This document shows positions 5,109-37,383 of a stretch of DNA of 64,000 nucleotides, one piece after another. The stretch covers positions 2,976,001 through 3,040,000 of the forward strand of contig NZ_FSRU01000001.1 of NCBI RefSeq assembly GCF_900142845.1. Direction: 5' to 3'. The position numbers and the translations under genes were made by a program. Every line of letters starts with the position of its first letter. Within the stretch, counting starts at the first letter, position 1. The notes under the pieces were generated by a model. The model saw only the letters and a list, made by a program, of their open reading frames with translations, was not told the DNA's origin and did not search any database. Source of the stretch: Paraburkholderia phenazinium (GTDB taxonomy: Bacteria > Pseudomonadota > Gammaproteobacteria > Burkholderiales > Burkholderiaceae).

Positions 5109-6080
5109 TCAAAGATCAAGCACAAGCCGCTCATTCCGCCTCGAGGAACATGTACCGTGAGATACGCACATGTACATCACTTCATTGGCCTCGCGCTGCG
5201 CCGCGTTCAGGATGCTGTCGCGATGCACTGGTTGTCCGGCCACGACACGGACCTCGCACGCCCCGCAGATACCTTCCCTGCAACTATAGTCAATGTCGAC
5301 ACCTTCCTTGAGCAACGTATCCAATAGGCTGGCGCCCGGCGCTACCTCGATTGTCCGGCCACTGCGCGCCAGTTCGACCACATAGGTTTCCGTTGAAGCA
5401 GCCACGGCGCCTTCGACGGGATGAAACCGCTCAAGATGCACGTCACGAATCGACGCTCGCTCGCACGCCAGTTCGAACGCATCGATCATCGACTTCGGGC
5501 CGCAGCAATACGCATGCGTGCCATCAGGCCGCGTAGCAAGCCATGCATCCATGTCGAACCGCCGACCATGGTGCTCGTCGCTAAAGTGCAATTCGACCTC
5601 GATGCCGAGCGACTTCAAATCATCGACAAACGCTGCATCCACGCGAGAGCGCGCCGCATACGCGACGCGAACATCACGGCGCAGCGCGCGCAATCGACGC
5701 GCCATGCAGAGAATCGCGGTAATTCCGATGCCGCCCGCAATCAATGCGCTCGAGGTCGCCGACTCGTCGAGTGCGAACTGATTACGCGGCGAGCCGATTT
5801 CGATCTGTGCGCCACAACGCAACAACTCGTGGATATAACGGGATCCGCCGCGGCTATCCGGCTCGTCGAGGACAGCAATCACATACCGGTCAACTTCGGT
5901 TTGCGCGTTCACGAGTGAATAGCTTCGTACGATTCCATTGGGCAGATGCAGATCGATATGCGCGCCAGCAGTGAAAGATGGAAACGTCGTGTTGCCGGTC
6001 GGCACGAGTTCCACGCTCACAATGCGCGTCGCTTCGTATCGCAGCGTCCGCACCCGTGCTTTGAGTCGTTCAGCACTCAT
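5109..6080 (-). CDS. PDR/VanB-type FMN/FAD-NAD(P)H oxidoreductase with C-terminal 2Fe-2S ferredoxin domain
   Basis: A 323-residue single-chain electron-transfer protein for a Rieske oxygenase. Domains in order: flavin-binding barrel with RSYS at 52-55, NAD(P)H domain with GGIGIT at 116-121, and plant-type ferredoxin with Cys267, 272, 275 and 305 (C-x4-C-x2-C-x29-C). This is the layout of phthalate dioxygenase reductase and VanB. It is the only such reductase in the window, and the only Rieske oxygenase is at 34595-35929, so the two probably work together although they are 28 kb apart. The ATG at 6080 fits homologues better than the TTG at 6095. It is separated from the next co-directional gene by 574 bases and a plus-strand reading frame, so it may be transcribed on its own. 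Confidence 0.9.
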   Translation of the reverse strand: MSAERLKARVRTLRYEATRIVSVELVPTGNTTFPSFTAGAHIDLHLPNGIVRSYSLVNAQTEVDRYVIAVLDEPDSRGGSRYIHELLRCGAQIEIGSPRNQFALDESATSSALIAGGIGITAILCMARRLRALRRDVRVAYAARSRVDAAFVDDLKSLGIEVELHFSDEHHGRRFDMDAWLATRPDGTHAYCCGPKSMIDAFELACERASIRDVHLERFHPVEGAVAASTETYVVELARSGRTIEVAPGASLLDTLLKEGVDIDYSCREGICGACEVRVVAGQPVHRDSILNAAQREANEVMYMCVSHGTCSSRRNERLVLDL

Positions 6081-6169
6081 GGTTTCCACACTCAAAAGTT
6101 CATGGCGAGATTTTTATTGGCGGACAAAAATGGATTCGACAATTCATTCCTCGTCATCATTAGCCAACT

Positions 6170-6589: not shown

Positions 6590-6654
6590 GAGGTACAGGT
6601 CACAGCGGAGCGCGCAACCCGCGCTCCGCCCTGCTCGATGCCTCCCCGCCGTCT

Positions 6655-7461
6655 CTAGACGACGATCCCCCCGTCGATCACCAGTTCCTGCCCCGTGATA
6701 TTTCGTCCACCCTCGCTGGCAAGAAACGACACCATTGCAGCGATATCCCAAGGCTCGTTCAGCTTGCCCAATGCGGGACCCATCTCGGCCGTATAGCGCG
6801 CAACCGCAGTGGACGTATCCACCCCATCGCGACGACCGCGCTCGGCCCACCCGCGTTTCATGCGATCGACGGCAATCGGTCCCGGCGCAATGTAGTTGAC
6901 CGTCACCCCTGAACGTCCCGCTTCGAGCGCGGCGCAACGCGTCAGTCCACGCAGTCCCCACTTCGACGACGTGTAGCCGACCCGCCCTGCCCGTCCACGC
7001 ATGCCGTGATTGCCGCCAATGTTGATGATCCGCCCGTAGCCCCGCTCGATCATCACAGGCAGAAGATACGTCATCGTCAGGAACGGGCCGCGCAGGTTGG
7101 TGCTGATCATGGCGTCGAATTCGGCGATCGGCAGTTTTCCAATCGGCACTTCAACGGCCCCTGGAATAGCCGCGGCATTCACGAGTACATCGATGCGCCT
7201 GTCGGACCACTCGAGAACCGCCCCCAATGCGTCGGCCACCGCTTGCTCGTTCATCAGGTCGAACGCAAAGGCCTGCGCCGTACCGCCCGCTTCGAAGATG
7301 CAAGCCGCCGTCTCGTTCAGCGCATCGAGGCGGCGTCCTGCCAACGCGACGCGATATCCTTCAGACGCCAGCGTCAACGCGATTTCGCGTCCCGTTCCGC
7401 TCGAAGCGCCGGTGATCAGCGCGACGGGCATCTCCTGCTTCGCTCCAGAGGTGTTCATCAT
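6655..7461 (-). CDS. SDR-family NAD(P)-dependent oxidoreductase with Ser-to-Gly active site
   Basis: A 268-residue short-chain dehydrogenase with Rossmann motif TGASSGTG at about 17-24, the NAA motif near 95, and Y163-x3-K167. The catalytic serine, expected 13 residues before the tyrosine, is Gly150 in the sequence NIGGNHG. Two other SDRs in this island have the same change. The start overlaps the stop of the PhyH-type dioxygenase gene (ATGATGA), so translation is coupled. It is the last gene of the long minus-strand run and ends VIDGGIVV, typical of the family. The substrate is probably an alcohol, diol or ketone intermediate produced by the oxygenases in the island; the exact reaction is not known. 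Confidence 0.88.
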   Translation of the reverse strand: MMNTSGAKQEMPVALITGASSGTGREIALTLASEGYRVALAGRRLDALNETAACIFEAGGTAQAFAFDLMNEQAVADALGAVLEWSDRRIDVLVNAAAIPGAVEVPIGKLPIAEFDAMISTNLRGPFLTMTYLLPVMIERGYGRIINIGGNHGMRGRAGRVGYTSSKWGLRGLTRCAALEAGRSGVTVNYIAPGPIAVDRMKRGWAERGRRDGVDTSTAVARYTAEMGPALGKLNEPWDIAAMVSFLASEGGRNITGQELVIDGGIVV

Positions 7462-8342
7462 GGGTTCGTAACCGTGTCGAAGAAACGCGAGCGCGCCATC
7501 GTCTGCGTCTTGTAGATCGAACTGCCTTCACTCGGGAACGGTAAGGTCAGCGGGTTTGGTTCGATACGCACGCGGCTCGTCGGCTCACCCAGCACGATTC
7601 GCGAGTTATATTCGTTCCAGTCGACGTGATAGAACAACGGCCACGCGTCCACTGCGGCGAACTCCAGAAACAGTATGCGGCGCGGCGAGCCCGACCGGTT
7701 CAGGCCAGAACCGTGCACCGTCATCGGATGATGAAACGCAACCGTCCCCGCCTTTCCCACCAGCGGTTGCGCAGTCGAAAAATCAAGACCCTTGGTTGAC
7801 GGATCAATCGCGCCGACGAACCGGTCCTCGCTGTCATGATGCTCATGCAAGGGTCCAAGGTGACTGCCCGACAACACCTGCATGGCACCGTTTTCGACAA
7901 ACGCGTCGTCGATCATCACCGACGCCACGCAGGTCGACATATTGGTGTGCGGCGCAAACGCCCAGTCCTGATGCCACTCGAGGGTCGAACCGACCCGTGC
8001 AGCCTTCACATTGATCTTGCTGTGATTGAGGCGCACCGCGTCGCCCACCACACGGCGGACAAAACCTAGCACGTCCGGATTGCGAGCGAGTTCGAAATAG
8101 AACGGGTCCACGCGATGGGGCTTCTTCATGCGCTGGATCGGCGGCTTTTCGCCGCCCTGCGCGTCTTCGAAATCGAAAATCGCTCGATGCGCATCGTCAT
8201 CCACCGCATCGGCCATTAACCGGTCGGTCAGCGCGCGCAGCGCCTGGGTCACGTGATCGCCGAGCAAGCCCGGCATCACGACATAGCCGCGTTCCTGATA
8301 ATGTTCGACCGCAGCGTCGAATGTTTCGCTATTCAAGTTCAT
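7458..8342 (-). CDS. phytanoyl-CoA dioxygenase (PhyH) family 2-oxoglutarate/Fe(II) oxygenase
   Basis: A protein of about 294 residues with the PhyH iron triad H124-x-D126 (in EWHQDW) and H210 (in PMTVHGSG), and arginines at 221-222 for 2-oxoglutarate. Bacterial members hydroxylate diverse small molecules, not only phytanoyl-CoA. The start is uncertain: AAAGGAG directly abuts the ATG at 8342, so the TTG two codons later, spaced six bases from it, may be used. It follows the DUF1445 gene by 41 bases and overlaps the SDR gene at its 3' end, so an oxidation product could pass to that dehydrogenase. Substrate unknown. Confidence 0.87.
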   Translation of the reverse strand: MNLNSETFDAAVEHYQERGYVVMPGLLGDHVTQALRALTDRLMADAVDDDAHRAIFDFEDAQGGEKPPIQRMKKPHRVDPFYFELARNPDVLGFVRRVVGDAVRLNHSKINVKAARVGSTLEWHQDWAFAPHTNMSTCVASVMIDDAFVENGAMQVLSGSHLGPLHEHHDSEDRFVGAIDPSTKGLDFSTAQPLVGKAGTVAFHHPMTVHGSGLNRSGSPRRILFLEFAAVDAWPLFYHVDWNEYNSRIVLGEPTSRVRIEPNPLTLPFPSEGSSIYKTQTMARSRFFDTVTNP

Positions 8343-8383
8343 CTCCTTTAGTGCAGACGGCTCTCGCCACGTCGCGCCAGCCA

Positions 8384-9184
8384 TCACGCGGACGCAGCCA
8401 ATTCCTCGATGCGCAGATCGGTCACGACCATATGCGCCTTGTAATGGGTAATGCAAAACGGCAGACGGGCATGCATTGCTGCAAGTTGCGCAGTCGCACC
8501 ACACGCCCAGAACACCGGCAGCTCGTCTTCGCGCAACGTGGTCAGGCCGTGACCGCCATAGGACTGCGAAAGATCCTCAATGCCGATCAGTTGCGGCAGT
8601 CCAATATGCACCGGCGCGCCATGAAACATCGTGTGGCGGCTCGATACGAGCGTCGCGCGTATCGCGTCAGCCGGCGACAATGCGCGCATCGACACGACGA
8701 GCGGTCCTTTGAACGGCTCGCACGCTTCGGTTTGCAACGAGGTCACGTACATCGCGGAGACATTGCCTTCGTCGAGATGACGCAGCCGTACACCGTGATT
8801 TCGCAACAGCGTCTCGAACGAAAACGAGCAGCCCAGCACGAACGCAACCAGGTCGTCACGCCAGATATCGGTGATCGACTCAGGCGTGCTGCTTAGCTCG
8901 CCATCGCGAAACACCATGTAGCCGCCCACGTCCGTGCGCAGATCAAGGTCGGCGCCCAGCGCGGGCATGAACGGCACGCCCGGCTCCGATCGCGCCAGCA
9001 ACGGCAACGCCTGAGCGTTAGCCGCGCAAAACGCGGCGAATGCATCGGCATAGGCGGCAGGCACGATCATCAGGTTGCCCTGTACGTGATGCGGCGCGAT
9101 ATGGTTCGTGTATCCGGTCCAGCGCCGCTCACGGATCGCATGACGCAGGGCGAGCGGTGTATCGAACGTCGTGGTTGAGTTCAT
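8384..9184 (-). CDS. DUF1445 putative hydro-lyase (YcsI/D-glutamate cyclase-like family)
   Basis: A 266-residue protein with the family features GYTNHIAPHHVQGNL near the start, FPxxx-type core GCSFSFE, and the conserved FWACGATAQ near the C-terminus. Related proteins are annotated as putative hydro-lyases, and one mammalian homologue is a mitochondrial D-glutamate cyclase that interconverts D-glutamate and 5-oxo-D-proline. The ATG at 9184 overlaps the tonB stop (ATGA), fixing the start. A lactam- or glutamate-active enzyme here would fit the nearby HyuA/HyuB (oxoprolinase/hydantoinase) pair and the glutamine-synthetase-like ligase, but this is inference. Confidence 0.82.
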   Translation of the reverse strand: MNSTTTFDTPLALRHAIRERRWTGYTNHIAPHHVQGNLMIVPAAYADAFAAFCAANAQALPLLARSEPGVPFMPALGADLDLRTDVGGYMVFRDGELSSTPESITDIWRDDLVAFVLGCSFSFETLLRNHGVRLRHLDEGNVSAMYVTSLQTEACEPFKGPLVVSMRALSPADAIRATLVSSRHTMFHGAPVHIGLPQLIGIEDLSQSYGGHGLTTLREDELPVFWACGATAQLAAMHARLPFCITHYKAHMVVTDLRIEELAASA

Positions 9185-9888
9185 GGCGCGCTGAACTCCA
9201 CGGTCACCGTGAACGCATGCGCGTTTTCGCCGGTCCATGCATCGGCGGGGATGGCCGGATAACTGCCGCTTTCGACAATTGCGACTGCCTGCTTGTCGAG
9301 AATCGGCGAGTTGGACGTCCGCACCACGCTGACGTTGCTGACCGCACCCGCGCGGCTCAACGTGAAGCTCACCTCAACCGCACCCTCCGGGCGCAAGCGG
9401 CGTGCTTCACCGGACGGCGGGTATTGCGTGATCGACCGAATATACGAGCGTAACTTGCCCACGAAGCTGTTCTCGAGCGACGCGTTGTTCACTGGCGGCG
9501 CCACCGGGGCGGGCGGCGTCGGTTCGGCCTTCAGCGGCGCAGGTTGCGACGGCGGCGTAGCCTGAGGCGGTGGCACGGGCGCGGGTTTGGGCGCGGCCAC
9601 CGGCGTCGGTGCGGTCGTCGCATGCACCGGTGCCGGCACAGGTACCGGCCGGGGCTTAGGCGGCGGTGGAACCGGTTTGGGCGGCGGCGGCATTGGAGCC
9701 GGGGGGTGTACCGGCGCGGGAGGCTCGGGCGGCGGTGCCTGCAACGCCACCACGAACGTCTCCTGCTTCGGCGGAGCGGGCAACGGCGGGATAGGTCGCA
9801 GCGCGCCGAGCACGAGCAGCACGGACACAGCCACTACCATCCCGAACCCGGCCCCTTGACTCACTCGCTCCATAGGATCGGCACGCAT
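9181..9888 (-). CDS. tonB: TonB family energy transducer
   Basis: A 235-residue protein with one N-terminal membrane anchor (about 13-31, MVVAVSVLLVLGAL), a long proline/alanine-rich periplasmic spacer (about 32-140) and a C-terminal TonB domain containing YPPSGEARRLRPEGAVEV and the TonB-type SGSYPAIPADAW region. It links inner-membrane proton motive force to the outer-membrane receptor. It starts three bases after exbD, in the order receptor-exbB-exbD-tonB, so the complete uptake machine is encoded next to its receptor. An alternative ATG at 9873 would remove five residues. Confidence 0.9.
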   Translation of the reverse strand: MRADPMERVSQGAGFGMVVAVSVLLVLGALRPIPPLPAPPKQETFVVALQAPPPEPPAPVHPPAPMPPPPKPVPPPPKPRPVPVPAPVHATTAPTPVAAPKPAPVPPPQATPPSQPAPLKAEPTPPAPVAPPVNNASLENSFVGKLRSYIRSITQYPPSGEARRLRPEGAVEVSFTLSRAGAVSNVSVVRTSNSPILDKQAVAIVESGSYPAIPADAWTGENAHAFTVTVEFSAP

Positions 9889-9891
9889 CGC

Positions 9892-10296
9892 TTATTTCGC
9901 CTTCGTGATGATCGACGCGGCCGGCAGACCCGCATCTTTCAGTTGATCGAGCACGTCGACCAACACCTGCAGATTCGAGTGACCGTCGCCCGCGATGATC
10001 ACGCTCGGCTTGTCGTTACCCGCAATACTGCGCAAGGCCGCCGCAACCTGCGCAACCGGCGTCGGCTTGCCGTCGACCAGCACGTCGCCGCCCTGATCGA
10101 TCGTCAACGTAATGCGCTTTTGCTCCTGCACCTTCTCAGGGCTCGCCGAACTCGGCAACGCCACTTTCAATCCGAGCGCCGGCAACACATTCATGCTGAT
10201 CAGCACGAAGAACGCGAGCAAAAACATCATGACGTCGATCATCGGAATGATCTCGATGCGTGCCCGCCGTACTTCTCTTTGTGGAAATTGCCTCAT
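9892..10296 (-). CDS. exbD: ExbD/TolR family biopolymer transport protein
   Basis: A 134-residue protein with the ExbD layout: a short cytoplasmic tail, one membrane helix containing the conserved proton-pathway aspartate (IPMIDVMMFLLAFFVLI, about 18-34) and a periplasmic domain ending in DQLKDAGLPAASI. It works with ExbB as the proton-driven motor for TonB. It lies between exbB (34 bases upstream) and tonB (three bases downstream). Confidence 0.93.
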   Translation of the reverse strand: MRQFPQREVRRARIEIIPMIDVMMFLLAFFVLISMNVLPALGLKVALPSSASPEKVQEQKRITLTIDQGGDVLVDGKPTPVAQVAAALRSIAGNDKPSVIIAGDGHSNLQVLVDVLDQLKDAGLPAASIITKAK

Positions 10297-10330
10297 TTAA
10301 AGCCTCCGTCGACCTGGCTGGATAGTCGGC

Positions 10331-10975
10331 TCAAGCCGCGCGCTGACCGCGCATCTCGGCGCGCCGCGCCTGCCCCGACAAAGTCGCTTCAAGCAGGAAG
10401 GACTTGAATTCGTCGCTCAGGCTCTCGCCGAACCGGTGCAGGATGTTGTATCCGAGCAGGCCATACAGCGCCGTACCGATACCGATGGCAGTGGCGAAAA
10501 GCGCCGAGCCGATGCCACGGCTCACCGCGCCAGGGTCCGAAATCCCGCCTGCCGACAACGCATTGAACGTATCCATGATGCCGAGAATCGTACCGAGCAG
10601 ACCCAGCAGCGGCGCTGCCGTTACGATCGTGTCGAGAATCCACAAGCCGCGATTGATCTTGCGATCCACCCGCAGGAACAGCGCCGTCGACACGTCTTCG
10701 ACACGTTCGCGCGGCGCGTTCCCTTCACGCTGCACGTCCATATACTCGGACATGGCACGTGTCATCACGTCGGCGGCCGACTTGTCGAACTGCGGCTGCG
10801 GCCACGCTGGATCCTGCGCGACAGCCAACGCTAACGCCTTCGCAATGCGCGCCCGCCTGGCGGTCAGGTAAAAGTAAAAGACGAGTCGTTCGACGATCAC
10901 GAAGGTGAGGATCACCATCCCTGCATAGAGCAGGTGGATCGACGCGGCATGGAGAAATTCTCGATTGATTGGCAT
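10331..10975 (-). CDS. exbB: MotA/TolQ/ExbB proton channel family protein
   Basis: A 214-residue membrane protein: one N-terminal helix (about 12-35), a cytoplasmic loop, then the paired helices with the family core WILDTIVTAAPLLGLLGTILGIMDTF (about 120-145) and GIGSALFATAIGIGTALYGLLGYN (about 158-182). With ExbD it forms the inner-membrane ion channel that energises TonB. It starts nine bases after the receptor gene, so the receptor and its motor are in one transcript. Confidence 0.93.
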   Translation of the reverse strand: MPINREFLHAASIHLLYAGMVILTFVIVERLVFYFYLTARRARIAKALALAVAQDPAWPQPQFDKSAADVMTRAMSEYMDVQREGNAPRERVEDVSTALFLRVDRKINRGLWILDTIVTAAPLLGLLGTILGIMDTFNALSAGGISDPGAVSRGIGSALFATAIGIGTALYGLLGYNILHRFGESLSDEFKSFLLEATLSGQARRAEMRGQRAA

Positions 10976-10984
10976 GATGTTCCG

Positions 10985-13333
10985 TCAGAAGGCAGTTGCG
11001 AAAGTAACCATTGCGGTGACGCCGTTGCCCACGAGATACGTCGGGGCAGAGCCTGCGACCGACGAGCCGTCGAGGGCTTCGGTGGTCCTGGCATTCGTTG
11101 TCGCGCTATACACGCCCGACAGGTAGTGACGATTGAGCAAGTTCAGCATGTTGAGACGGATCTCAGGCTTCTTCAGGAACGCCGTGTTCGCGAAGCGCAT
11201 GCCGAGCGTGCCGTCCATCGTCATGTACGAAGGGATCTTTTCGTCGTTCATGAAGGTCGAGTATTGCGAGCCCACATACTTGACACCCAGGTTGGCGAAA
11301 TAGCGGCCGGTGTCGTAGTCGACTGCAAACGCGGCCTGCATGCGCGGCGATTCGACAGCTTCTTTCCCCGCCGTCGGGAGGTACGACGTACCCGTTTGAA
11401 TGTTGTCCTCGATTTCCGTATGCAGATATTCAAACGACACATACGGACGGAAGTTGTGGATCGGCTGCATGCCCAGTTCGAAGTCCACACCTTCGCCCAT
11501 CTGACGTCCACCATTGATCGGTTCGCTCAGGCAACCCGGATCGCAGATGCTCGACGAGATCTGACGGTTCTTGAAGTCATAGCGGAACAGCGTGGTGGAC
11601 GACGTGAAATACGGTCCCTGGTAACGGTAGCCGAGCTCGAACGACGTGGAGCTTTCGCCCGGTTGATGCGGGTTTGCCTTCGTCGTCTGCGTGCCGTTGT
11701 AGTAGTACGGATAGAGCGAGTTTTCCGGCAAGAGGCCGTAGCTCTCGGTCACGCTCGCGAAAAACTGGTGGCGTTCGGCCGGTTTGAAACTCACAGCGAA
11801 AGTCGGCAATGTCGCCATGTGCACGACTTCGTCACGCGGATCCGGATTCGGTTCGAGATCGTTACCCACACGGCGCAGCCACAGTTCCTTGAGACCCGCG
11901 CTGATCTTGAGCGAGTCGCCCAGGTAGCTCAGCGTATCGCCGAAGAAGAGTGCGCCGGAGTCGTCAATGGTGTTCCGGTTCAAGCCGGTAATCACCTGCC
12001 CGTTCGACAGGCGGATCTGGTCGCTGCTACCCGAGTAGTCGAGCGGCGTGGTGCCGTTCGTGTAGCTATACGGTTGATACAGGTGGTCTTGCGAGTGCTC
12101 GAACCACGCACCGGCGACGATGTCGTTGTTGCCAATCGTGTATTCGCCCTTGAGCGTCGTACCTTCGCGAACCGTGCTTTCGATATACGGCGTGTAGACG
12201 AGAACGTTAGTGTCGGTGGTCGTGCCATTGCGGTTGAGGTCGACCGGTTGAACCGTGTCGCCGTAACCCACCGCGCTTTCGTTCATCAGCGAGGCATCGC
12301 CCGAAGCACCGTAGCCATAGTAGACATATGGCGTGAAGGTCACGCGCAACGCCGGATTCACAACGAACGTGGACGGCATCGACACGAGCAGGTTGCGCCA
12401 CGGGTTCTTCAGCAATGCGTAATACGACGTGCCGCCGGCCGCGTAGCTCGCGGCGTAGTTCGACGCCGAGCCAAAGCCGCGATCCTGACTGTACTCCGCG
12501 AGCGTCGGGTTCTTATACGTATCGCGCACGATCTCCGAATAGGTCAGCGCGAGCTTTGTCGAACTGCCGCCGCCCCAGTCCTTCACAATACCCATGTCGA
12601 CGTGTTGCTTCTTGTCCTCGCCTTCGCCGCGGAAATGGTTGGCGTCGATGTTCGAAAACGAAATAAAGCCACGCAAACCGGTGTCGCCAATGTCGCCGCT
12701 TTCGAGTCGCACGAACTCACGACGCGCATCGTCCGTACCGTACGACATATCGACGAGTCCGCCGGCCTCGTGAGACGGGTTATGCAGGAACAGATCGACC
12801 ACGCCGCCCGTCGCGTTGACGTTCGGCGAAGCGAGGTCGGGCGTGCCCTGGTTCAACGTCACGACGTCGGTGTTCTCCGTATCGATCCACTCACCCGGAA
12901 ACACGGACCAGTTCGACACGACACTCAACGGCATGCCTTCGAAGTTGAAACCCATTTGCGAGCCCTGCAGACCGCGCACTGCGATCACGCCCTGGTTGAG
13001 ACCGTATGCATCGCCGGTGCCTGTCGTCGCACCCGGCGAGTACTTCAGAATCTGAAATACATCCGCGGACGGAGCCTGCTTCTGAATGAAATCGCGCGTG
13101 ACCGAGCTCTTTGACTTCGGCACGTCTTCGTCGACGATCAGACCGCCACCAGGTTCTTTACGCGTCACGCCCGTTGCCGAGGGCGTGTTGTCCGCGGTGG
13201 CCGTACTCGTACCCGTTGCGCTGACTTTGCCGATGTCGGTCGTGTCTTTGTCGGGTGTAGTCGTCTGAGCGAACACCGATGCCGGAACTGTGGCACCTAC
13301 GACCATCCATTTGATAAGCGTCTTGTTCTTCAA
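10985..13333 (-). CDS. TonB-dependent outer-membrane receptor
   Basis: A 782-residue receptor. A signal peptide (about 1-22, ending VFAQ) is followed by a plug domain with a TonB-box-like region and QAPSADVFQILKYSPGA, then a barrel that ends in phenylalanine (TFATAF) as outer-membrane proteins usually do. It resembles ligand-uptake receptors without an obvious siderophore signature, and it has no N-terminal FecR-signalling extension. The dedicated exbB-exbD-tonB genes follow within nine bases. Its placement inside a degradation island suggests it imports the substrate or a bound form of it. The 290 bases upstream (13334-13623) separate it from the aldehyde dehydrogenase gene and hold no obvious strong promoter, though a new transcript could start there. 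Confidence 0.9.
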   Translation of the reverse strand: MKNKTLIKWMVVGATVPASVFAQTTTPDKDTTDIGKVSATGTSTATADNTPSATGVTRKEPGGGLIVDEDVPKSKSSVTRDFIQKQAPSADVFQILKYSPGATTGTGDAYGLNQGVIAVRGLQGSQMGFNFEGMPLSVVSNWSVFPGEWIDTENTDVVTLNQGTPDLASPNVNATGGVVDLFLHNPSHEAGGLVDMSYGTDDARREFVRLESGDIGDTGLRGFISFSNIDANHFRGEGEDKKQHVDMGIVKDWGGGSSTKLALTYSEIVRDTYKNPTLAEYSQDRGFGSASNYAASYAAGGTSYYALLKNPWRNLLVSMPSTFVVNPALRVTFTPYVYYGYGASGDASLMNESAVGYGDTVQPVDLNRNGTTTDTNVLVYTPYIESTVREGTTLKGEYTIGNNDIVAGAWFEHSQDHLYQPYSYTNGTTPLDYSGSSDQIRLSNGQVITGLNRNTIDDSGALFFGDTLSYLGDSLKISAGLKELWLRRVGNDLEPNPDPRDEVVHMATLPTFAVSFKPAERHQFFASVTESYGLLPENSLYPYYYNGTQTTKANPHQPGESSTSFELGYRYQGPYFTSSTTLFRYDFKNRQISSSICDPGCLSEPINGGRQMGEGVDFELGMQPIHNFRPYVSFEYLHTEIEDNIQTGTSYLPTAGKEAVESPRMQAAFAVDYDTGRYFANLGVKYVGSQYSTFMNDEKIPSYMTMDGTLGMRFANTAFLKKPEIRLNMLNLLNRHYLSGVYSATTNARTTEALDGSSVAGSAPTYLVGNGVTAMVTFATAF

Positions 13334-15117: not shown

Positions 15118-15147
15118 CGGAACTCAATATGAAGGTCGGTTGAGGTG

Positions 15148-16350: not shown

Positions 16351-16375
16351 GATGTCTGTCAGGTGGCGGAGGGGG

Positions 16376-19638: not shown

Positions 19639-19834
19639 CGGAACTCCCAATACAGTACGGAATGGTACGAAGCGAGACGAGACGGACCGCGCCGGCTCGG
19701 CGCACGCCGCGGCAACACGTCTGTCTGAAGGTTAAGTGCACAAAAGCGGCGGACTCGTTGCCGATTTCGTGTGAAGGGGTTGCCGGTTTGGCATCACTCG
19801 GCGCAACCGGCGGCAGGCCGGGGTCAGCCGGTCA

Positions 19835-29387: not shown

Positions 29388-29572
29388 CGTTTGACACTCG
29401 TCGTGACTACCCGTCGCGCGCGCATTGCTGCGCGCGCAAAAACGGCCTGCCACATGCAACGACCAAACGACGCATGTGATGGGCCATGCCGTCTTCGAGG
29501 CGGATAAGGACGACGTCGCAGTGCACCGCCGTCGATCGCGGTGCATAACAGACGCGCAGTGGTGCACGCAGG

Positions 29573-30547
29573 TCAGTCGGTCTGGAGCATCGCATCAGCA
29601 TCTGCGTGGATGCCCGGCACATCCTGCGACGGCGTGGAACGCCACTCGTGGAGCTTGCGCGCGAGTTGCTCGCCGAACTTGGCTGTGGCGAGCGGCAAGG
29701 CACGTCCACGTAACTGACCGAGCACGAGCGGGCCGAATGCAGCATCGCGTTCATCGACCGGCACCACAGCAAGCATCGGATCCTGCCGCCAGCCGAGCGT
29801 GCCGATGTCGATCTGAAACGTGATGATCCGCGATTGCCGTACGAGATCGACCAGCAAGTCGAATGAGTTCGCCTCGATGATCGGATTGAGCTGCACCGAA
29901 CTCCGCGCGACGATCTCGTCGATGATCTCGCGACCGGAAAAACTGCTGTCCACGAGACCGATCTCATACTCCAGGCATTCGCGCATCCGCACGGATGGCC
30001 GTCCCGCGAGCGGATGATCCGCCGACATCACCGCGACCAGCCCCTGCCCGATCGACATCAGCGGTTGAAGCTCCGCTGCCTGCGGTGGCCGGAACACCAG
30101 CACGAGGTCCGTTTCATACGCAATCAATGCACGCATGGCGCGGCCATGGTCGCAGATGGTCACATGAAACTTGACGAGCGGATGCTGCGCCCGGAAGTCG
30201 ATGATCTCCTGCAACAGAAAACCCCGCGCCACCGCCTGGCTTGCCGACACACGCACCTCGCCGCGCCGTAGCCCCGAGAGCGATTCGATCTGCGACATCA
30301 CGTGACGCAGTCCCGCGTTCTGCGTGCGTATCCAGCCGAGGAACAGTTCGCCGGCCGCAGTCAATTGCGCACCCGCCGAGGTCCGCTCGAATACCGGCGC
30401 GCCGAGTTCTTCCTCAATGTCCTGAATGCGCCGCAAGAGCGCCGACGGCGTGACATACAGGCGTTCGGCCGCCCGCCGTATCGAGCCCGCACGCGCGACC
30501 TCTTCCAGATAACGCAGAACTCGCATGCTACGAAGCGTCACGGCCAC
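29573..30547 (-). CDS. LysR-type transcriptional regulator of the catabolic island
   Basis: A 324-residue LysR regulator: winged helix-turn-helix at about 8-67 (VARAGSIRRAAERLYVTPSALLRRIQ) and effector domain from about 90. It uses S-A-L-L in place of the common S-A-V-S at the recognition helix start. It is transcribed away from the SDR/amidohydrolase/Rieske operon, with a LysR-box dyad in the shared 256-base region. It is the only regulator within the 5-37 kb island, so it is the best candidate to control it; its inducer is likely the substrate or an intermediate. Confidence 0.9.
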   Translation of the reverse strand: MAVTLRSMRVLRYLEEVARAGSIRRAAERLYVTPSALLRRIQDIEEELGAPVFERTSAGAQLTAAGELFLGWIRTQNAGLRHVMSQIESLSGLRRGEVRVSASQAVARGFLLQEIIDFRAQHPLVKFHVTICDHGRAMRALIAYETDLVLVFRPPQAAELQPLMSIGQGLVAVMSADHPLAGRPSVRMRECLEYEIGLVDSSFSGREIIDEIVARSSVQLNPIIEANSFDLLVDLVRQSRIITFQIDIGTLGWRQDPMLAVVPVDERDAAFGPLVLGQLRGRALPLATAKFGEQLARKLHEWRSTPSQDVPGIHADADAMLQTD

Positions 30548-30803: not shown

Positions 30804-31595
30804 ATGGATTTGCAGCTGCGCAACAAAGTCGTGGTAGTGACGGGCCCAGCAAAGGGAATGGGTCCAGCGATCGTGCGCGCGTTTGCCGCCGAAGGCGCGA
30901 AGCTGGTCCTCGCGGGACGTGACATGGCTGCGATTGAAGGTCTCGTGCAAGACCCCGCTTTAAGTGGCGCAGACATCCTGATGATTCGTTGCGATGTCAC
31001 CGATGCGGCCGACGCCGACGCGCTCGCCAACGCTACGATGGCCCGCTTCGGTTGTATCGACGTACTCATTAACGTGGCGGGCGGCACCGGTCCCGTAGGC
31101 GGCACGACGTGGACCACCACGAATGAAGAGTTCGAGGAGATCGTCGATGTCAACCTGACCGGCTGTTTCAACATGATGCGGGCCATCATGCCGTCCATGA
31201 TCGAACGGCGCTACGGGAAAGTCGTCAACGTGGGCGGTACGTTCGGCATGCGCGGCCGCGCCGGTCGCATGGCTTACTCGGCTTCAAAATGGGGGCTACG
31301 CGGCGTGACCAAGTCGGCAGCGCTCGAAGCCGGTCGCTACAACATCAACGTCAATTACGTTGCGCCCGGTATGGTCGACGGCGAGCGCTTTCGCACGAAG
31401 GTCGTGCCCGACGTCATGCGCAAGCTGTCCATCGGCGAGGAAGAAGCCGTCGCGCATCACGCGCAGGACTATGCGCTCCAACGCATCAGCAACGATAGCG
31501 ACGTGGCGCACGCGTGCCTGTTTCTCTCCTCCGATGTATCACGTCAAATTACCGGAGTCGATCTGCCTGTCGACGGCGGATGGGCCATGCTCTGA
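30804..31595 (+). CDS. SDR-family oxidoreductase with Ser-to-Gly active site
   Basis: A 263-residue SDR with cofactor motif TGPAKGMG (13-20), Y158-x3-K162 and Gly145 in place of the catalytic serine (NVGGTFG). It is a close paralogue of the SDR at 6655-7461: both share GMRGRAGR just before the tyrosine. AAAGGA lies about six bases before the ATG. It is the first gene of the plus-strand operon with two amidohydrolases, a Rieske oxygenase and a GS-like ligase. The role is likely dehydrogenation of a dihydrodiol or alcohol. Confidence 0.88.
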   Translation: MDLQLRNKVVVVTGPAKGMGPAIVRAFAAEGAKLVLAGRDMAAIEGLVQDPALSGADILMIRCDVTDAADADALANATMARFGCIDVLINVAGGTGPVGGTTWTTTNEEFEEIVDVNLTGCFNMMRAIMPSMIERRYGKVVNVGGTFGMRGRAGRMAYSASKWGLRGVTKSAALEAGRYNINVNYVAPGMVDGERFRTKVVPDVMRKLSIGEEEAVAHHAQDYALQRISNDSDVAHACLFLSSDVSRQITGVDLPVDGGWAML

Positions 31596-31637
31596 CCGCT
31601 GGTCTGCCACAGCACTTACTTTCCTCGCAAACACACC

Positions 31638-33068
31638 ATGATTGCAGACCTGATCATTCGCGGCGGCACTGTCGTCACCGACTCCACCCAATACGTCGCA
31701 TCCATTGCGATCAAGGACGGCCGCGTGCTGTGCATCGGACACGATGCGAGCATGCCCGAGGCGAAAGAAACGCTCGATGCGCGCGGCAAGCATGTGCTGC
31801 CCGGCGCGATCGACGTTCACGTTCATTTCCGCGAACCCGGCTACACCCATAAGGAAACATGGGCAACAGGGACGGCGAGTGCTGCGATGGGTGGCGTCAC
31901 GACGGTGTTCGAAATGCCCAATACGAACCCGCCGACCGGCACGCCCGATGCATTGAAGCTCAAGCTCGAAGCGGCACAGAAGGCATACGTGGACTACGGC
32001 ATCTATGGACTGCTCGCCGAAAACAATCTGGATCAACTGGAGAGTCTGATCGACGGCGGCGTGGCGGCGTTCAAGTGCTTCATGGGCAACACGTTCGGCA
32101 ACCTGCCCTCGCCGCCCACCGGCGCGATGCTCGAAGGATTTGAAATCGTCGCGCAGCATGGCATGCGCATCTCCCTGCATGCGGAAAACGCGTCGATCAT
32201 GGCGCGACGTCAACAGCAACTCAAAGCGGCTGGCCGGCATGATCCGCTCGCCCATCTCGATGCGCGACCACCCGTTGTTGCCGTAGAAGCGGTGGCCCGT
32301 GCGGCGATTCTCGCTGAATGGACCGGCGCCCGCATTCACATCCTGCATGTTTCGTCGGGTGATGAACTGCGGCCGCTTGCGGAAGCGAAGGCGCGCGGCG
32401 TCGACATCACCGCCGAGACAGCACCGCACTATCTGCTGCTCGACGAACGTGCGTACCGCGAAAAGGGCTCGCTGATTCGCGTGAATCCGCCGATTCGTCA
32501 GAAGCAGCATCAGATCGCGCTATGGGAAGGCATTCGCAACGGCACGATCGACATGATCGCGACCGATCACGCGCCGCACGCCGAAACCGAAAAGTTCAAG
32601 GACGACATCTGGTGCGCCGATTGCGGCTTCACCGGCGTGGAAACACAAATGCCGTTGATGTTGACGCAAATCGCGCAAGGCCGTCTCACGCTCAACGACT
32701 ATGTGCGACTCACCGCGACGGCGCCCGCGAAGGCGTTTGGCCTCTTCCCGTACAAGGGCATTCTGCAACCGGGGGCGGACGCCGATATCGTCGTGATCGA
32801 CATGGAGCGCGAAGAAATCATTACGTCCGGGCGGCTCAAGTCGATCGGCAACTCCACGCCGTTCAACCTCACACCCGTCAAGGGCGTGCCGGTACATACG
32901 CTCGTGCGTGGACGCTTTGTGATGCGCGATCGCGAGCTGGTCGAAAGCGCGCGCGGGCATGGGCAATCAGTGCGCCGGATCCAGAAGATGCCCGCGGCTA
33001 CCCCACGCAATCTCGATCAGAGTACGGCCGCGATCACGTCGTCGCATCCGCAAGAAAGCGTGCTTTGA
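31638..33068 (+). CDS. dihydroorotase-like cyclic amidohydrolase (allantoinase/hydantoinase relative)
   Basis: A 476-residue enzyme of the DHOase/hydantoinase group: metal motif HVHFREPG (about 58-65), carboxylated lysine in AFKCFMGN (about 149), HAEN (about 183), HILHVSS (about 238) and ATDHAPH (about 312). All metal ligands are retained. A C-terminal extension of about 30 residues is not part of the fold. True pyrimidine-synthesis dihydroorotase is unlikely because of the catabolic context; opening of a five- or six-membered cyclic diamide (hydantoin, allantoin, dihydropyrimidine-like) is more probable. The next amidohydrolase begins within its stop codon. Confidence 0.88.
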   Translation: MIADLIIRGGTVVTDSTQYVASIAIKDGRVLCIGHDASMPEAKETLDARGKHVLPGAIDVHVHFREPGYTHKETWATGTASAAMGGVTTVFEMPNTNPPTGTPDALKLKLEAAQKAYVDYGIYGLLAENNLDQLESLIDGGVAAFKCFMGNTFGNLPSPPTGAMLEGFEIVAQHGMRISLHAENASIMARRQQQLKAAGRHDPLAHLDARPPVVAVEAVARAAILAEWTGARIHILHVSSGDELRPLAEAKARGVDITAETAPHYLLLDERAYREKGSLIRVNPPIRQKQHQIALWEGIRNGTIDMIATDHAPHAETEKFKDDIWCADCGFTGVETQMPLMLTQIAQGRLTLNDYVRLTATAPAKAFGLFPYKGILQPGADADIVVIDMEREEIITSGRLKSIGNSTPFNLTPVKGVPVHTLVRGRFVMRDRELVESARGHGQSVRRIQKMPAATPRNLDQSTAAITSSHPQESVL

Positions 33069-34546
33069 CTGCCGGCGTGGACACACAGGTGCTGCGGGTG
33101 GGCCGGTTGTTGACGGCGCCCGGCCGGCACGCGCCTTCGGGACCGTCTGCGATTCATGTGCGGGACGGGCGCGTGGCCGCAATCGAAGCGCTGCCGCATG
33201 ACGCGACGGACCGTAGCCGCTCGTTGATTGCGCTGCCTGCTCCCGTCAATGCACACGACCACGGACGCGGACTGCGCACACTCGCGTTCGGCGCCGCGGA
33301 TGGTCCGCTCGAAACGTGGATCGCCGCGCTTGCGCGCGAGCCACGCGTCGATCCGTATCTGCGCGCCGCCGTGGCGTTTGCAGGACTCGCCGAAGGCGGC
33401 ATCTGCGCGGCCAATCACTGTCACAACACGCAGAATAGCCAGGCGCTCTACGAAGAAGCCGTGGGCGTGGCAAAGGCCGCGTATGACGTAGGCATTCGCG
33501 TGGCGTTCGCCGTGCCGTTTGCAGGGGCGAATCCGACGGTGTATGGCAACCTCGGCGCCCTCCTTGCGCGTCTGCCTGAAGACGATCGGGCGGTATTGCT
33601 CGCCACGCAGCGGCCGTCGCGCACGCTCGCTGACAACCTCGCGTTGACTGAGCGGATCGCTGCCCTCCAACATCCGTGGTTCTCGGTGCAATACGGGCCG
33701 GTCGGGCCCCAGTGGGTCGACCATGCGACGCTGGAAGCGGTTGCGCGCGCATCCGCCGAAACGGGCCGACGCGTCCACATGCATCTGTTCGAAACGCGGC
33801 AGCAACGCGAATGGGCAGACGCCCGCTATGGTCCAGGTGGACTGATCGCTTATCTGGCCGGCATCGGTATGTTGTCGGCGCGCCTCACGGTTGCGCACGG
33901 CGTCTGGCTCACGCCGGATGAATGCGATGTGCTTGCGCGTTATAACGTGACGGTTTCGATCAATACGTCATCGAACCTGCGTCTTCAGTCTGGGATTGCA
34001 CCGCTTGCTTCGATGATCGAGCGCGGAGTGCGTTTTGGCATTGGCCTCGACGGCATGGCACTCGACGACGACGATGACATGTTGCGCGAGATGCGTCTGC
34101 TGCGCCATGTCCAGCAAACGCAATCGCACGCCACGCTATCCATAGGCGAGCTGTTCGACGCGGCGTGCCGGCATGGCCGCTCCACGGTCGTCAGCGATGG
34201 CGGCGGCAGCATCGAAGTGGGCGCGCCCGCGGACATCCTGATCGTGGACACGACCCGGATCTTCCGTGACAGGCTCAACGACAGCGACGAAGGTCTGCTC
34301 GACCTGCTGCTTGCGCGTCTGACCAAAGCCGATATCGCCACCCTGGTCGTGGCGGGCCGCACGATCGTCGAGCGCGGTCAATGTTGCTCCGTCTCGCGCA
34401 GCGCGCTTGAACAGGCACTGCTGAACGACGCGCGACGTGCACGCGAGATCGCGCCGCTTCAACCCGCCGACACAGCACGGTTGACCCGGCTACACACGGC
34501 GCTCGGCGACTTTTACGCCTGCGGTTGTCACCGCAAACCGGATTGA
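33065..34546 (+). CDS. amidohydrolase family protein (chlorohydrolase/cytosine-deaminase-like)
   Basis: About 493 residues of the amidohydrolase superfamily: an N-terminal LTAPGRHAPSG-type beta domain, HDHGRG (about 62-67) where the usual H-x-H lies, HMHLFET (about 238-244), TVAHGVW (about 276) and GLDGMALDDDDDM (about 328-340) with the catalytic aspartate. This pattern is like AtzB/TrzN, guanine and cytosine deaminases. The start is uncertain: TTG at 33065 overlaps the previous stop (TTGA), and GTG at 33077 is an alternative. It could hydrolyse the ring-opened product, or remove an amino group from the ring. It lies one base before a possible start of the Rieske gene. Confidence 0.82.
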   Translation: MTAGVDTQVLRVGRLLTAPGRHAPSGPSAIHVRDGRVAAIEALPHDATDRSRSLIALPAPVNAHDHGRGLRTLAFGAADGPLETWIAALAREPRVDPYLRAAVAFAGLAEGGICAANHCHNTQNSQALYEEAVGVAKAAYDVGIRVAFAVPFAGANPTVYGNLGALLARLPEDDRAVLLATQRPSRTLADNLALTERIAALQHPWFSVQYGPVGPQWVDHATLEAVARASAETGRRVHMHLFETRQQREWADARYGPGGLIAYLAGIGMLSARLTVAHGVWLTPDECDVLARYNVTVSINTSSNLRLQSGIAPLASMIERGVRFGIGLDGMALDDDDDMLREMRLLRHVQQTQSHATLSIGELFDAACRHGRSTVVSDGGGSIEVGAPADILIVDTTRIFRDRLNDSDEGLLDLLLARLTKADIATLVVAGRTIVERGQCCSVSRSALEQALLNDARRAREIAPLQPADTARLTRLHTALGDFYACGCHRKPD

Positions 34547-34594
34547 ATGAACCGGCTGGTCACAGAAACCGGCCCGCTACCAGGAATCGGACTC

Positions 34595-35929
34595 ATGGAA
34601 ACAGCAGCAGACAACGAAATGATGACACGCGTCGGACCGACGACGCCGGGTGGGACGCTGTTGCGCGCGTATTGGCAGGCGGTCGCGCTGGTGGAGGAGC
34701 TTGACGGGCCGCGCCCCGTCAAGGCCGTGCGTCTGATGGGCGAAGACTTCGTGCTGTTTCGCGACGAACTGGGACGCTACGGCCTGCTCGATCGTCATTG
34801 TCCGCATCGCGCCGCCGATCTCGCGTACGGCCGGCTCGAAAACGGCGGCTTACGCTGCCTGTTTCACGGCTGGCTGTTTGCGGTTGACGGCACCTGCCTC
34901 GAAACGCCGGCTGAGCCGCCCAATGTGCGTCTTTGCGACCGCGTGCGTCAGACGGCTTATCCGGTGGTCGAACGATCGGGCATCCTGTTCGCCTATCTCG
35001 GCAAGGGCACGCCGCCCGCGTTTCCCGCATTCGATTGCTTTGTCGCGCCGTCGAGCCATACGTTCGCATTCAAGGGTCTCTTCGAGTGCAACTGGCTGCA
35101 GGCATTGGAGGTGGGAATCGATCCATCGCATGCGTCGTATCTGCATCGTTTCTTCGAAGACGACTCGCCGTCCGAAAGCTACGGCAAACAGTTTCGCGGC
35201 ACATCGGCGGATTCCGATGTCGCGATCACGACGGTTTTGCGCGAATACGATTGCCCCACGATTCAGGTCGAGTCCGCTCCTTACGGCCTGCGCTTGACGG
35301 CGCTGCGTGACCTGGGCCACGCGCAAACCCATGTGCGCGTGACGAACCTCGTATTTCCGCAAGCGTTCGTGATTCCGATGAGCGCCGAGATGACGATCAC
35401 GCAATGGCATGTGCCGGTCGACGACACCCATTGCTATTGGTACGCCATCTTCACCAGTTTCACGGAACCCGTCGACAAGGCGCAAATGCGCGCGCAGCGG
35501 CTGGAACTCTATGAATTGCCCGACTACACGTCACGCCGTAATCGCCGCAACGAGTATGGCTACGACGTCGACGAGCAACATCGCGAGACCTACACCGGCA
35601 TGGGCCACGACATCAACGTTCATGATCAGTGGGCGGTCGAATCGCAAGGCCCCATCCAGGATCGCACCCGGGAACATCTCGGCACCGCCGACAAAGGCAT
35701 CGTGCGTTACCGCAGGTTGCTGAAGGATTCGATTCGCGCGGTTTCGCGCGGAGAGCGTGCGCCGATGATGGTCGATGAGAGCGAAGCGCGGAACTTGACG
35801 GGCCCCGCGTCGATCGACGGCATCAGTCATGGCGTAGAAGCGGCGACTTACTGGCAGGACGCCGACCAGCGTCGCCGCGAAGCATGCGAATGGGCTTCGC
35901 GCGCGCAATCGACGATGAAGGAAGCGTGA
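34595..35929 (+). CDS. Rieske 2Fe-2S aromatic ring-hydroxylating oxygenase, alpha subunit (phthalate 4,5-dioxygenase type)
   Basis: A 444-residue oxygenase of the single-type alpha3 group. The Rieske cluster is C69-x-H71 and C88-x2-H91; the mononuclear iron site is in EVGIDPSHASYLH (D-x2-H-x4-H), with the bridging aspartate present. The N-terminus MMTRVGPTTPGG...YW matches phthalate dioxygenases and decides the ATG at 34595, which has AGGAA nine bases upstream; ATG at 34547 is possible but less conserved. No beta subunit is encoded, as expected for this group. Its electrons probably come from the reductase at 5109-6080. It is followed directly (one-base overlap) by a GS-like ligase gene, a pairing also seen in aniline dioxygenase pathways. 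Confidence 0.92.
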   Translation: METAADNEMMTRVGPTTPGGTLLRAYWQAVALVEELDGPRPVKAVRLMGEDFVLFRDELGRYGLLDRHCPHRAADLAYGRLENGGLRCLFHGWLFAVDGTCLETPAEPPNVRLCDRVRQTAYPVVERSGILFAYLGKGTPPAFPAFDCFVAPSSHTFAFKGLFECNWLQALEVGIDPSHASYLHRFFEDDSPSESYGKQFRGTSADSDVAITTVLREYDCPTIQVESAPYGLRLTALRDLGHAQTHVRVTNLVFPQAFVIPMSAEMTITQWHVPVDDTHCYWYAIFTSFTEPVDKAQMRAQRLELYELPDYTSRRNRRNEYGYDVDEQHRETYTGMGHDINVHDQWAVESQGPIQDRTREHLGTADKGIVRYRRLLKDSIRAVSRGERAPMMVDESEARNLTGPASIDGISHGVEAATYWQDADQRRREACEWASRAQSTMKEA

Positions 35930-37383
35930 TGCCGTCACGTCCATTCGCCGAACAGCACGCGCTGTGGTCCGACGCGCAGCACGACGCCGCGTCGCTGCTG
36001 GCCGCTCGTCTGGAAAGTGGCGACTTCGACACCGTGCGCTTTGCGTTTCCCGATCAGCACGGCATCTTGCGCGGCAAAACGCTCGTTGCTGCAGAAGCCG
36101 CGCGCGCGCTGCGCTCGGGCGTTGGCTTCACGTCCACGATGTATGCGAAAGACACGTCGCATCGCTCGGTGTTCTCCGTGTTCACCAGGGAAGGTGGACT
36201 CGGCCTCGACAACATGGCGGGCACATCCAACAGCGTGCTGCTGGCCGACCCCACTACGTTCAAGGCGCTGCCGTGGAGCCCGCGTACGGGCTGGCTGCTC
36301 TGTGATGCGTATCTGCCCGACGGACGGGCGGTGCCCTATGCAACCCGTCCGATCCTCGCGAAAGCAAACGCGTTGCTCGCGGAGCGAGGCTGGCAGTTGA
36401 CAACCGGCCTCGAGGTCGAGTTTCACGTTTTTCGCGTGACCGATCCGCATATGCAACCGGAAGATGCGGGACAGCCCGGACGTCCTGTCGATGTCGAACT
36501 GCTGACGCATGGCTATCAATATCTCACGGAGTCGCGTTACGACGCCGTCGACGGCTTGATGCAGTTGCTGCGCGAAACGTGTGAGCGACTTGAGCTGCCG
36601 GTCAGTTCGCTGGAGATCGAGTTCGGTCCTAGCCAGTTCGAGTTCACCTTTGCGCCGCAATCCGCGGCGGCATCGGCTGACGCCATGTTGCTGTTTCGCA
36701 GCGCCGTCAAACAGGTGTGCGCCCGACACGGCTATCACGCGACCTTCATGTGCCGCCCACGCATTCCGAACGTCGTGTCGAGCGGCTGGCATCTGCATCA
36801 GTCGCTTGTGTCGATTGATGCTGCAGACGCGGGTTCCAATCTGTTCAAGCCCGATGCGACCGGACATCCCCTATCGCCGCTCGGCCTTCAGTTCATGGGC
36901 GGCCTGCTCAGACACGCGAGTGCATCGACGCCGTTCGCGACGCCGACCATCAACGGATACAAGCGTTTCAGAAGCCAGTCTCTAGCGCCGGATCGCGCAT
37001 GCTGGGCGCACGACAATCGCGGCGCCATGCTGCGCGTGCTCGGTGGCGTGGGCGATAACGCGACGCGCATCGAAAACCGCATTGGCGAACCTGCGGCGAA
37101 TCCCTACCTCTATTTTGCTTCGCAGATCTTCTCCGGCCTCGATGGGGTCGATCAGGCCATCCATCCTGGCGAGTCGGCCGATCAACCGTATTCATCGCCC
37201 GCGCCACGCTTGCCGACCACCCTGGCGGCTGCGCTCGATGCGCTGGCCGCGGATGAAGTCTTACGTTCCCAGTTTGGGCCTGGGTTTGTCGACTACTTCA
37301 TTCATCTGAAGCGCGCCGAGCTGGAGCGGTATCAAGCTGAAGTGTCCGAGTGGGAGCAACGCGAGTACTTCAATCTGATGTAG
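35929..37383 (+). CDS. glutamine-synthetase-like gamma-glutamyl ligase
   Basis: A 484-residue GS fold protein. The N-terminal beta-grasp (DTVRFAFPDQHGILRGKTL) is followed by the catalytic domain with LEVEFHVF, EIEFGPSQFEFTF, and YKRFRSQSLAP. It is not housekeeping GlnA: it is longer at the N-terminus, and it lacks the tyrosine adenylylation segment that I would expect near the C-terminus. GS-like enzymes in degradation clusters (PuuA, IpuC, TdnQ) attach glutamate to amines before oxidation. The ATG overlaps the Rieske stop by one base (TGATG), so they are co-translated. It probably glutamylates an amine substrate or intermediate. Confidence 0.88.
   Translation: MPSRPFAEQHALWSDAQHDAASLLAARLESGDFDTVRFAFPDQHGILRGKTLVAAEAARALRSGVGFTSTMYAKDTSHRSVFSVFTREGGLGLDNMAGTSNSVLLADPTTFKALPWSPRTGWLLCDAYLPDGRAVPYATRPILAKANALLAERGWQLTTGLEVEFHVFRVTDPHMQPEDAGQPGRPVDVELLTHGYQYLTESRYDAVDGLMQLLRETCERLELPVSSLEIEFGPSQFEFTFAPQSAAASADAMLLFRSAVKQVCARHGYHATFMCRPRIPNVVSSGWHLHQSLVSIDAADAGSNLFKPDATGHPLSPLGLQFMGGLLRHASASTPFATPTINGYKRFRSQSLAPDRACWAHDNRGAMLRVLGGVGDNATRIENRIGEPAANPYLYFASQIFSGLDGVDQAIHPGESADQPYSSPAPRLPTTLAAALDALAADEVLRSQFGPGFVDYFIHLKRAELERYQAEVSEWEQREYFNLM

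Follow-up and report, generated by a model that had tools for sequence, protein, structure and literature searches.

A recurring gene island of Paraburkholderia phenazinium predicted to degrade an N-heterocycle that contains or releases an anionic aromatic amine

What compound would bring three oxygenases, several amidohydrolases, a glutamine synthetase (GS)-like ligase and two transport systems together in a 32-kb run of Paraburkholderia phenazinium genes? The run lies at positions 5109 to 37383 of a 64,000-nucleotide stretch of contig NZ_FSRU01000001.1 (G000:C1:2976001-3040000; source genome G000, 8.5 Mb), hereafter the window, and an earlier note had read it as a catabolic island for a nitrogen-containing compound. 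Genes were called from open reading frame (ORF) lists together with Pfam and NCBIfam scans of the window proteins, and every part named in that note was present (Table 1), as was a D-glutamate-cyclase/DUF1445 family protein (DGluCyc) that it had not listed. The comparisons described here make it likely that the island is one horizontally spread, LysR-bearing catabolic unit, predicted to degrade a single N-heterocyclic compound that carries or yields an anionic aromatic amine.

A single island should keep its neighbours together in other genomes, as the earlier note had pointed out, and the same set was found in three. Fifteen of the 25 island genes lie within about 26.5 kb on plasmid NZ_CP141945.1 of Novosphingobium sp. 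RL4 (locus L159), 16 of 25 on one 26.6-kb contig of genome G817, and 19 of 25, the ATP-binding cassette (ABC) importer included, in about 36 kb of genome G1196 (locus L200), where most of the block order of the window is kept. G817 was located among 398 genomes of the phylum with the allantoinase/dihydroorotase-like cyclic amidohydrolase (here DHPase), which matched strongly in G000, G817 and G765; G1196 was located among 318 genomes of the class that it shares with G817, using the 2-oxoglutarate (2OG)-Fe(II) oxygenase DIOX, which matched strongly in these two. All four islands share 15 genes, with 49-76% identity to the window, and DHPase, HyuB and a pyridoxal phosphate (PLP) enzyme of the cystathionine beta-lyase type (CBL) are the best conserved. 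The window and G1196 have in common the blocks DIOX-HyuA-HyuB, a divergent block of the importer, the short-chain dehydrogenase (SDR) SDR2, CBL and aldehyde dehydrogenase (ALDH), and SDR3-DHPase-TRZ divergent from LysR, TRZ being a TRZ/ATZ-type amidohydrolase. Furthermore, the motifs of the PLP, Rieske, 2OG, HyuA, TRZ and DHPase proteins are retained in all four islands. The grouping goes beyond chance, because it recurs in three other genomes whereas loci selected only with the GS-like protein, L053 excepted, carry a Rieske gene and no other convincing island gene within up to 10 kb on each side, and the reading of the locus as a single catabolic island is thereby supported.

Each of the other islands adds genes: malate synthase G and DUF3830 in RL4, a NUDIX protein in G1196 and, in G817, an M20 (ArgE/DapE-like) protein whose 205.2 bits fall short of the 217.6 set for its family. 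The RL4 malate synthase G gene (L159, 16281-18386) directly adjoins that of DHPase. Past the G1196 island (L200, 11949-19873) lie a second Rieske oxygenase (Ring_hydroxyl_A), a flavoprotein and a molybdenum-hydroxylase-type protein.

A smaller core of LysR, SDR3, DHPase, ABC and TRZ genes occurs in Skermanella rosea, Azospirillum sp. TSH58 and G765, the last of which showed only this core (SDR3 63-65%, DHPase 60-71%, TRZ 43-48% and LysR 45-53% identical). Acetamidase/formamidase and DUF3830 genes accompany it in Skermanella and Azospirillum, and the stretches examined gave no match to HyuAB, DIOX, CBL, GS or Rieske. On the S. rosea plasmid, a cyanuric acid amidohydrolase (L160, 29618-30727; 549.6 bits against a cut-off of 360) stands beside the SDR3, DHPase and TRZ relatives.

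Patchy presence, a plasmid copy, a synteny break on the left and higher GC inside the island suggest horizontal transfer. The set is rare: with DIOX at E 1e-85, the source genome was the sole match among 329 genomes of its family, and the next best protein after the three islands was 39% identical among the ten plasmid matches listed. Of 144 same-genus genomes, 33 (own included) gave a HyuB match with an E value of 1e-100 or lower, the best other relative being 59% identical; a second HyuA/HyuB pair in the source genome (G000:C1:3467075-3470763) is 52% and 51% identical to that of the island. In two relatives of the same genus the left flank is conserved up to window positions 4978 and 4903, past which the stretches fetched contained no further window sequence; nor did these stretches include a right-flank match that would mark an empty site. 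GC amounts to 62.5% inside the island, 58.7% on its left and 60.0% on its right, where the next two scanned genes, SDR4 and LysR2, lack counterparts in the islands of RL4, G817 and G1196.

The aromatic side of the predicted substrate is suggested by the last two island genes, encoding a Rieske oxygenase and the GS-like ligase. A search of genome contigs with the GS-like protein gave 574 confirmed loci, 80 of which were examined with up to 10 kb on each side. A Rieske gene adjoins the GS-like gene in 79 of them (in L059 the contig ends first), and no other island gene was convincingly found within these distances except at L053 (Methylobacterium sp. DB0501), where relatives of SDR3, DHPase, TRZ and LysR accompany the pair. 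Rieske plus GS is a widespread two-gene unit, and the pair alone was dropped as a definition of the island because it is common without the remaining genes. Around stand-alone pairs (L048-L114, many from Bradyrhizobium), 26 of 80 loci have a benzoate-CoA ligase and 31 of 80 a regulator of the benzoate-catabolism type; in other genomes a nitroreductase and DUF4863, presumably a 4-hydroxylaminobenzoate lyase although NCBIfam gave no match, lie near the pair. The closest Rieske proteins among the best 120 of 7814 matches are 82-86% identical, one being labelled Burkholderia gladioli pv. gladioli, and may lie in further islands.

The solved structure nearest to the GS-like ligase is 8wwu (NpaA1, from 1-naphthylamine degradation), at 443.8 bits against 161.1 for the next chain. 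NpaA1 is described in PMC11335346 as lacking the GS flap Glu and as having acidic residues E232/E234 and, where the amine enters, a hydrophobic loop (V68'-M81'); ammonia-using GS carries that Glu, and the name glutamyl organic amide synthetases (GoaS) is used there. We deduce that this numbering is shifted by 15 from that of the 8wwu chain. The island protein resembles the aniline and 1-naphthylamine ligases NpaA1, AtdA1 and TdnQ in its acidic EIEF patch and in SLAPDR, which stands at the Glu-flap position in the window protein, NpaA1 and TdnQ. Its entry loop, in contrast, is basic (TMYAKDTSHRS) where that of NpaA1 is hydrophobic. Among relatives from the pairs, Lys89, Asp90 and Arg/Lys94 are present in 84 of 84 and His93 in 83 of 84; all four islands have the Lys, Asp, His and Arg/Lys residues, against Phe, Asp, Ser and Thr in TdnQ of Delftia. 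Because a basic entry loop replaces the hydrophobic one, the protein may act as a GoaS for a different kind of amine, probably glutamylating an anionic arylamine, and we infer an anionic benzenoid amine as the substrate of the pair. The loop KD(T/S)x(H/N)(R/K) offers a marker by which ligases acting on anionic arylamines may be told apart from aniline ligases.

The single relative with Asn93 comes from plasmid pSA3 of Novosphingobium resinovorum SA1, a 4-aminobenzenesulfonate degrader (PMC5632844). Its Rieske and GS proteins are 61% and 57% identical to those of the window, with the same basic loop except Asn for His, and form one subfamily with them. The 4-aminobenzenesulfonate dioxygenase system is described in PMC5632844 as comprising a dioxygenase (sadA), a glutamine synthetase (sadB) and a ferredoxin, with the suggestion that sulfanilate dioxygenase acts in nature on a structurally similar substrate; the Rieske-GS family could make the question of that substrate testable. 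The island shares with SadA/SadB/SadD of Hydrogenophaga intermedia PBC the dioxygenase gene beside the GS gene, a homology drawn from layout and not from sequences. Unlike the Sad system, the window pair is embedded in a heterocycle island and has no ferredoxin gene beside it, only a 2Fe-2S reductase 28 kb off. This reductase, whose domain order we take to be the phthalate-dioxygenase-reductase layout, may supply the Rieske oxygenase with electrons. The aniline clusters (tdn/atd; Delftia plasmid pLME1) contain a glutamine-amidotransferase-like gene and Rieske alpha and beta subunits, whereas the island has neither an amidotransferase-like gene nor a beta subunit; aniline catabolism is reported to run through gamma-glutamylanilide (PMC4539516). 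Near the pair of SA1, pSA3 also carries maleylacetate reductase, and a dihydropteroate synthase gene, folP, was seen at L115 (1337-2167; SA1 plasmid).

The pair may have a history of its own. Its genes are arranged as ALDH-Rieske-GS-receptor in G1196, whereas in the window the receptor comes directly after ALDH and the pair is placed after the TRZ gene. In trees of 28 GS and 27 Rieske rows, the window copy falls with stand-alone pairs in a 14-row, mostly betaproteobacterial group (support 99/98 and 96/96, respectively); the copies of the other three islands cluster together in the GS tree (98/97) and not clearly so in the Rieske tree. All four island copies were united in 0 of 200 bootstrap trees of either gene, and approximately unbiased (AU) tests of a single origin, on 21 rows each, gave p values of 0.033 (GS) and 0.087 (Rieske). 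The differing position and the branching of the window copy with betaproteobacterial stand-alone pairs suggest that the pair was recruited separately, probably more than once, into a larger pathway; against this stand a Rieske AU value that does not reject a single origin and the long branches of the island copies.

These results bear directly on the rival that survives best, namely that the region contains two systems, a heterocycle/cyclic-amide pathway next to a Rieske-GS pair for arylamines that is independent of it and near it by chance. Such an arrangement would account for the 79 of 80 GS-searched loci in which the pair stands without the other island genes (at one, L053, with part of them), and for the branching of the window's pair with stand-alone ones. 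We nevertheless consider it unlikely, since the pair is found inside all four islands despite its differing positions, a repeated association that argues for a joint role, and since at L053 the pair again stands beside part of the rest.

The heterocycle side of the proposed unit is suggested by its hydrolases. TRZ, nearest to atrazine chlorohydrolase (94 bits), keeps the HxH, HxxE, His and Asp motifs, to which we assign their presumed roles. DHPase scores narrowly above the cut-off of the allantoinase model TIGR03178 (363.6 against 357.85 bits), clearly above that of the dihydroorotase-type TIGR00857 (341.1 against 279.05) and, at 390 bits, under that of the dihydroorotase PRK09060; its motif in the islands is HVHFREPG or HVHFRDPG, and we take the Arg of HVHFREPG to be a dihydroorotase-like trait. 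As in the ATP-dependent hydantoinase/oxoprolinase family, both HyuA and HyuB are present with full Pfam domains, and HyuA matches the N-methylhydantoinase chain 7hk5 with 391 bits; no curated NCBIfam subfamily cut-off was reached, the caprolactamase scores being 469 and 198 bits against cut-offs of 1000. CBL, aligned to E. coli cystathionine beta-lyase (1cl1), retains what we take to be the catalytic PLP Lys and the carboxylate-binding Arg. The site of the cystathionine-specific Asp, which presumably binds the distal amino group of cystathionine, is occupied by Ala in the window and G1196, Asp in RL4 and His in G817. Amine glutamylation, ring oxygenation and cyclic-amide hydrolysis, all proposed in the earlier note, are consistent with these families and retained motifs.

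Assembled into one pathway, whose sequence of steps is a guess, these proteins could act as follows. The receptor and the THI5-type importer would take up the compound, and two 2OG oxygenases, three SDRs and ALDH would oxidise its side groups. TRZ may remove an amino group from the heterocycle by hydrolysis, DHPase and ATP-dependent HyuAB would open cyclic amides, and the PLP enzyme would cleave a beta-substituted alanine fragment. The anionic arylamine would be glutamylated by the GS-like enzyme, and from the product the Rieske oxygenase would make a diol that central aromatic pathways could use. A glyoxylate product is suggested by the malate synthase G gene next to the RL4 copy.

Several observations weigh against this reading. 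Sharing is incomplete: TonB/ExbB/ExbD, the reductase and the propeller-amidohydrolase were unmatched in the islands of RL4, G817 and G1196, and transport differs, the ABC importer being matched only in G1196 and the TonB-dependent receptor only in G817 (41%). In addition, the other islands found number only three; the SDR1-PhyH-DGluCyc block of G1196 lies about 13 kb from GS; and no catechol ring-cleavage enzyme was recognised within the island. Set beside these is the set of about 15 transferred, conserved genes common to distant Pseudomonadota. In it we recognise no known pathway, and it points to a compound met repeatedly in nature.

Our boldest guess, and the specific one using most of the enzymes, is that the island mineralises folate- or pterin-type compounds; we hold it to be improbable. 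A 2OG oxygenase would cut the bridge between pterin and p-aminobenzoate, and glutamylation and dioxygenation would lead the p-aminobenzoate half towards protocatechuate. The other half, the pterin, would be oxidised to the 6-carboxylate, deaminated by TRZ and reduced by an SDR, and DHPase and HyuAB would open the ring. The PLP lyase would then act on the 2,3-diaminopropionate-like unit that is left, and malate synthase on a glyoxylate unit. No pteridine reductase is among the 25 NCBIfam models listed for SDR3, which does not help this guess; the M20 protein of G817, as noted, scores under its family cut-off. To our knowledge no gene set for complete pteridine breakdown has been described before, and such an island, if true, would be the first.

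An ordinary ureide or pyrimidine pathway (allantoin-, hydantoin-, uracil- or thiamine-pyrimidine-like) to which oxidative genes have been added, in which the ligase acts on an aminopyrimidine acid and not on a benzenoid amine, would agree with the narrow allantoinase score of DHPase, with the malate synthase G of RL4 and with the cyanuric acid amidohydrolase adjoining the smaller core in Skermanella. It would also suit the substrate-binding protein, which matched two PDB chains, 4nmy and the thiamine-pyrimidine binder 3ix1, and the match of DIOX to thymine dioxygenase (140 bits). DIOX, however, matches a chain named ethylene/succinate-forming enzyme better (197 bits), Rfam at the gathering score gave no riboswitch, TPP included, in the window, L159, L166 or L167, and plain allantoin or uracil use gives no reason for a sulfanilate-type ligase, a Rieske enzyme, a beta-lyase and HyuAB; we regard this alternative as quite improbable. 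That the genes instead build a modified natural product is very hard to credit: the PhyH and 2OG-oxygenase relatives do include EvdO2, SnoK and isopenicillin N synthase, but no scaffold-assembling enzyme is among the Pfam families found, and the importer, several hydrolases, ALDH and the malate synthase G of RL4 fit breakdown.

Three specific substrates were discarded. Sulfonamide drugs, whose sulfanilyl and aminopyrimidine parts would fit, were set aside because no enzyme for cleaving the S-N bond was recognised and the divergence among the islands looks too great for a recent compound. HyuAB-type enzymes occur in indoleacetate/oxindole degradation, but such substrates leave TRZ and DHPase unexplained. 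For biotin, no beta-oxidation genes were seen.

Table 1. Island genes in the window, with family evidence and counterparts in the islands of RL4, G817 and G1196
Product	Position	Strand	Evidence	Other islands
Reductase, NAD-binding and C-terminal 2Fe-2S domains	5109..6095	-	Pfam Fer2, NAD_binding_1; no NCBIfam model above cut-off	unmatched in three
SDR1 dehydrogenase	6655..7461	-	Pfam	55-57% in three
PhyH-type 2OG-Fe(II) oxygenase	7458..8504	-	PF05721; HxD and second His kept	53-57% in three
D-glutamate-cyclase/DUF1445 protein ('putative hydro-lyase')	8384..9238	-	PF07286; NCBIfam 305 bits, below cut-off 324	66-68% in three
TonB	9181..9888	-	PF03544, TIGR01352	
ExbD	9892..10296	-	assigned by position and sequence only, no domain scan	
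ExbB	10331..10975	-	PF01618	
TonB-dependent receptor	10985..13333	-	PF00593, PF07715	41%, G817 only
ALDH	13624..15117	-	PF00171	57-68% in three
CBL, PLP enzyme of cystathionine beta-lyase type	15148..16395	-	TIGR01324, 485.6 bits (cut-off 365.9)	71-75% in three
SDR2 dehydrogenase	16376..17149 (start inferred; ORF runs to 17383)	-	Pfam	51-57% in three
ABC permease 1	17197..18048	-	PF00528	58% in G1196
ABC permease 2	18045..18977	-	PF00528	46% in G1196
ABC ATPase	18850..19650	-	PF00005	67% in G1196
NMT1/THI5-type substrate-binding protein	19835..21172	-	PF09084; PDB matches only 4nmy, 3ix1	60% in G1196
DIOX, 2OG-Fe(II) oxygenase of isopenicillin-N-synthase type	21173..22270	+	PF14226, PF03171	59-64% in three
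HyuA, ATP-dependent cyclic-amide hydrolase subunit	22338..24434	+	PF01968, PF05378, PF19278	63-67% in three
HyuB	24431..26074	+	PF02538	68-74% in three
PD40-propeller and amidohydrolase protein	26178..29567	-	PF07676, PF01979	unmatched; window-specific accessory
LysR regulator	29573..30547	-	Pfam	50-59% in three; divergent from SDR3 in 4/4 islands
SDR3 dehydrogenase	30804..31595	+	Pfam	65-67% in three
DHPase, allantoinase/dihydroorotase-like cyclic amidohydrolase	31638..33068	+	TIGR03178, TIGR00857	72-76% in three
TRZ/ATZ-type amidohydrolase, probable aminohydrolase	33062..34546 (approximate start)	+	PF01979; motifs	49-57% in three
Rieske oxygenase with LigXa_C domain	34547..35929	+	PF00355, PF19301; motifs kept	59-68% in three
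GS-like ligase, aromatic-amine (GoaS) type, basic amine-entry loop	35884..37383	+	PF00120; NpaA1 444 bits	51-53% in three

The minus-strand block reads, in the direction of its genes, binding protein, ATPase, two permeases, SDR2, CBL, ALDH, receptor, ExbB, ExbD, TonB, DGluCyc, PhyH, SDR1 and reductase. Divergent from it are DIOX-HyuA-HyuB on the plus strand, followed by the propeller-amidohydrolase and LysR on the minus strand and by SDR3-DHPase-TRZ-Rieske-GS on the plus strand. Some ORFs have N-terminal extensions that are probably untranslated (SDR2 being about 16376-17149 and the TRZ start lying near 33070), and the start of the PhyH ORF is probably placed too far upstream. A tRNA-Cys called by ARAGORN at 23696-23790, inside hyuA, was rejected as false since it falls within a conserved coding region. 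Outside the island, the window encodes at 41137-43377 a 746-residue protein of the ADP-ribosylglycohydrolase family.

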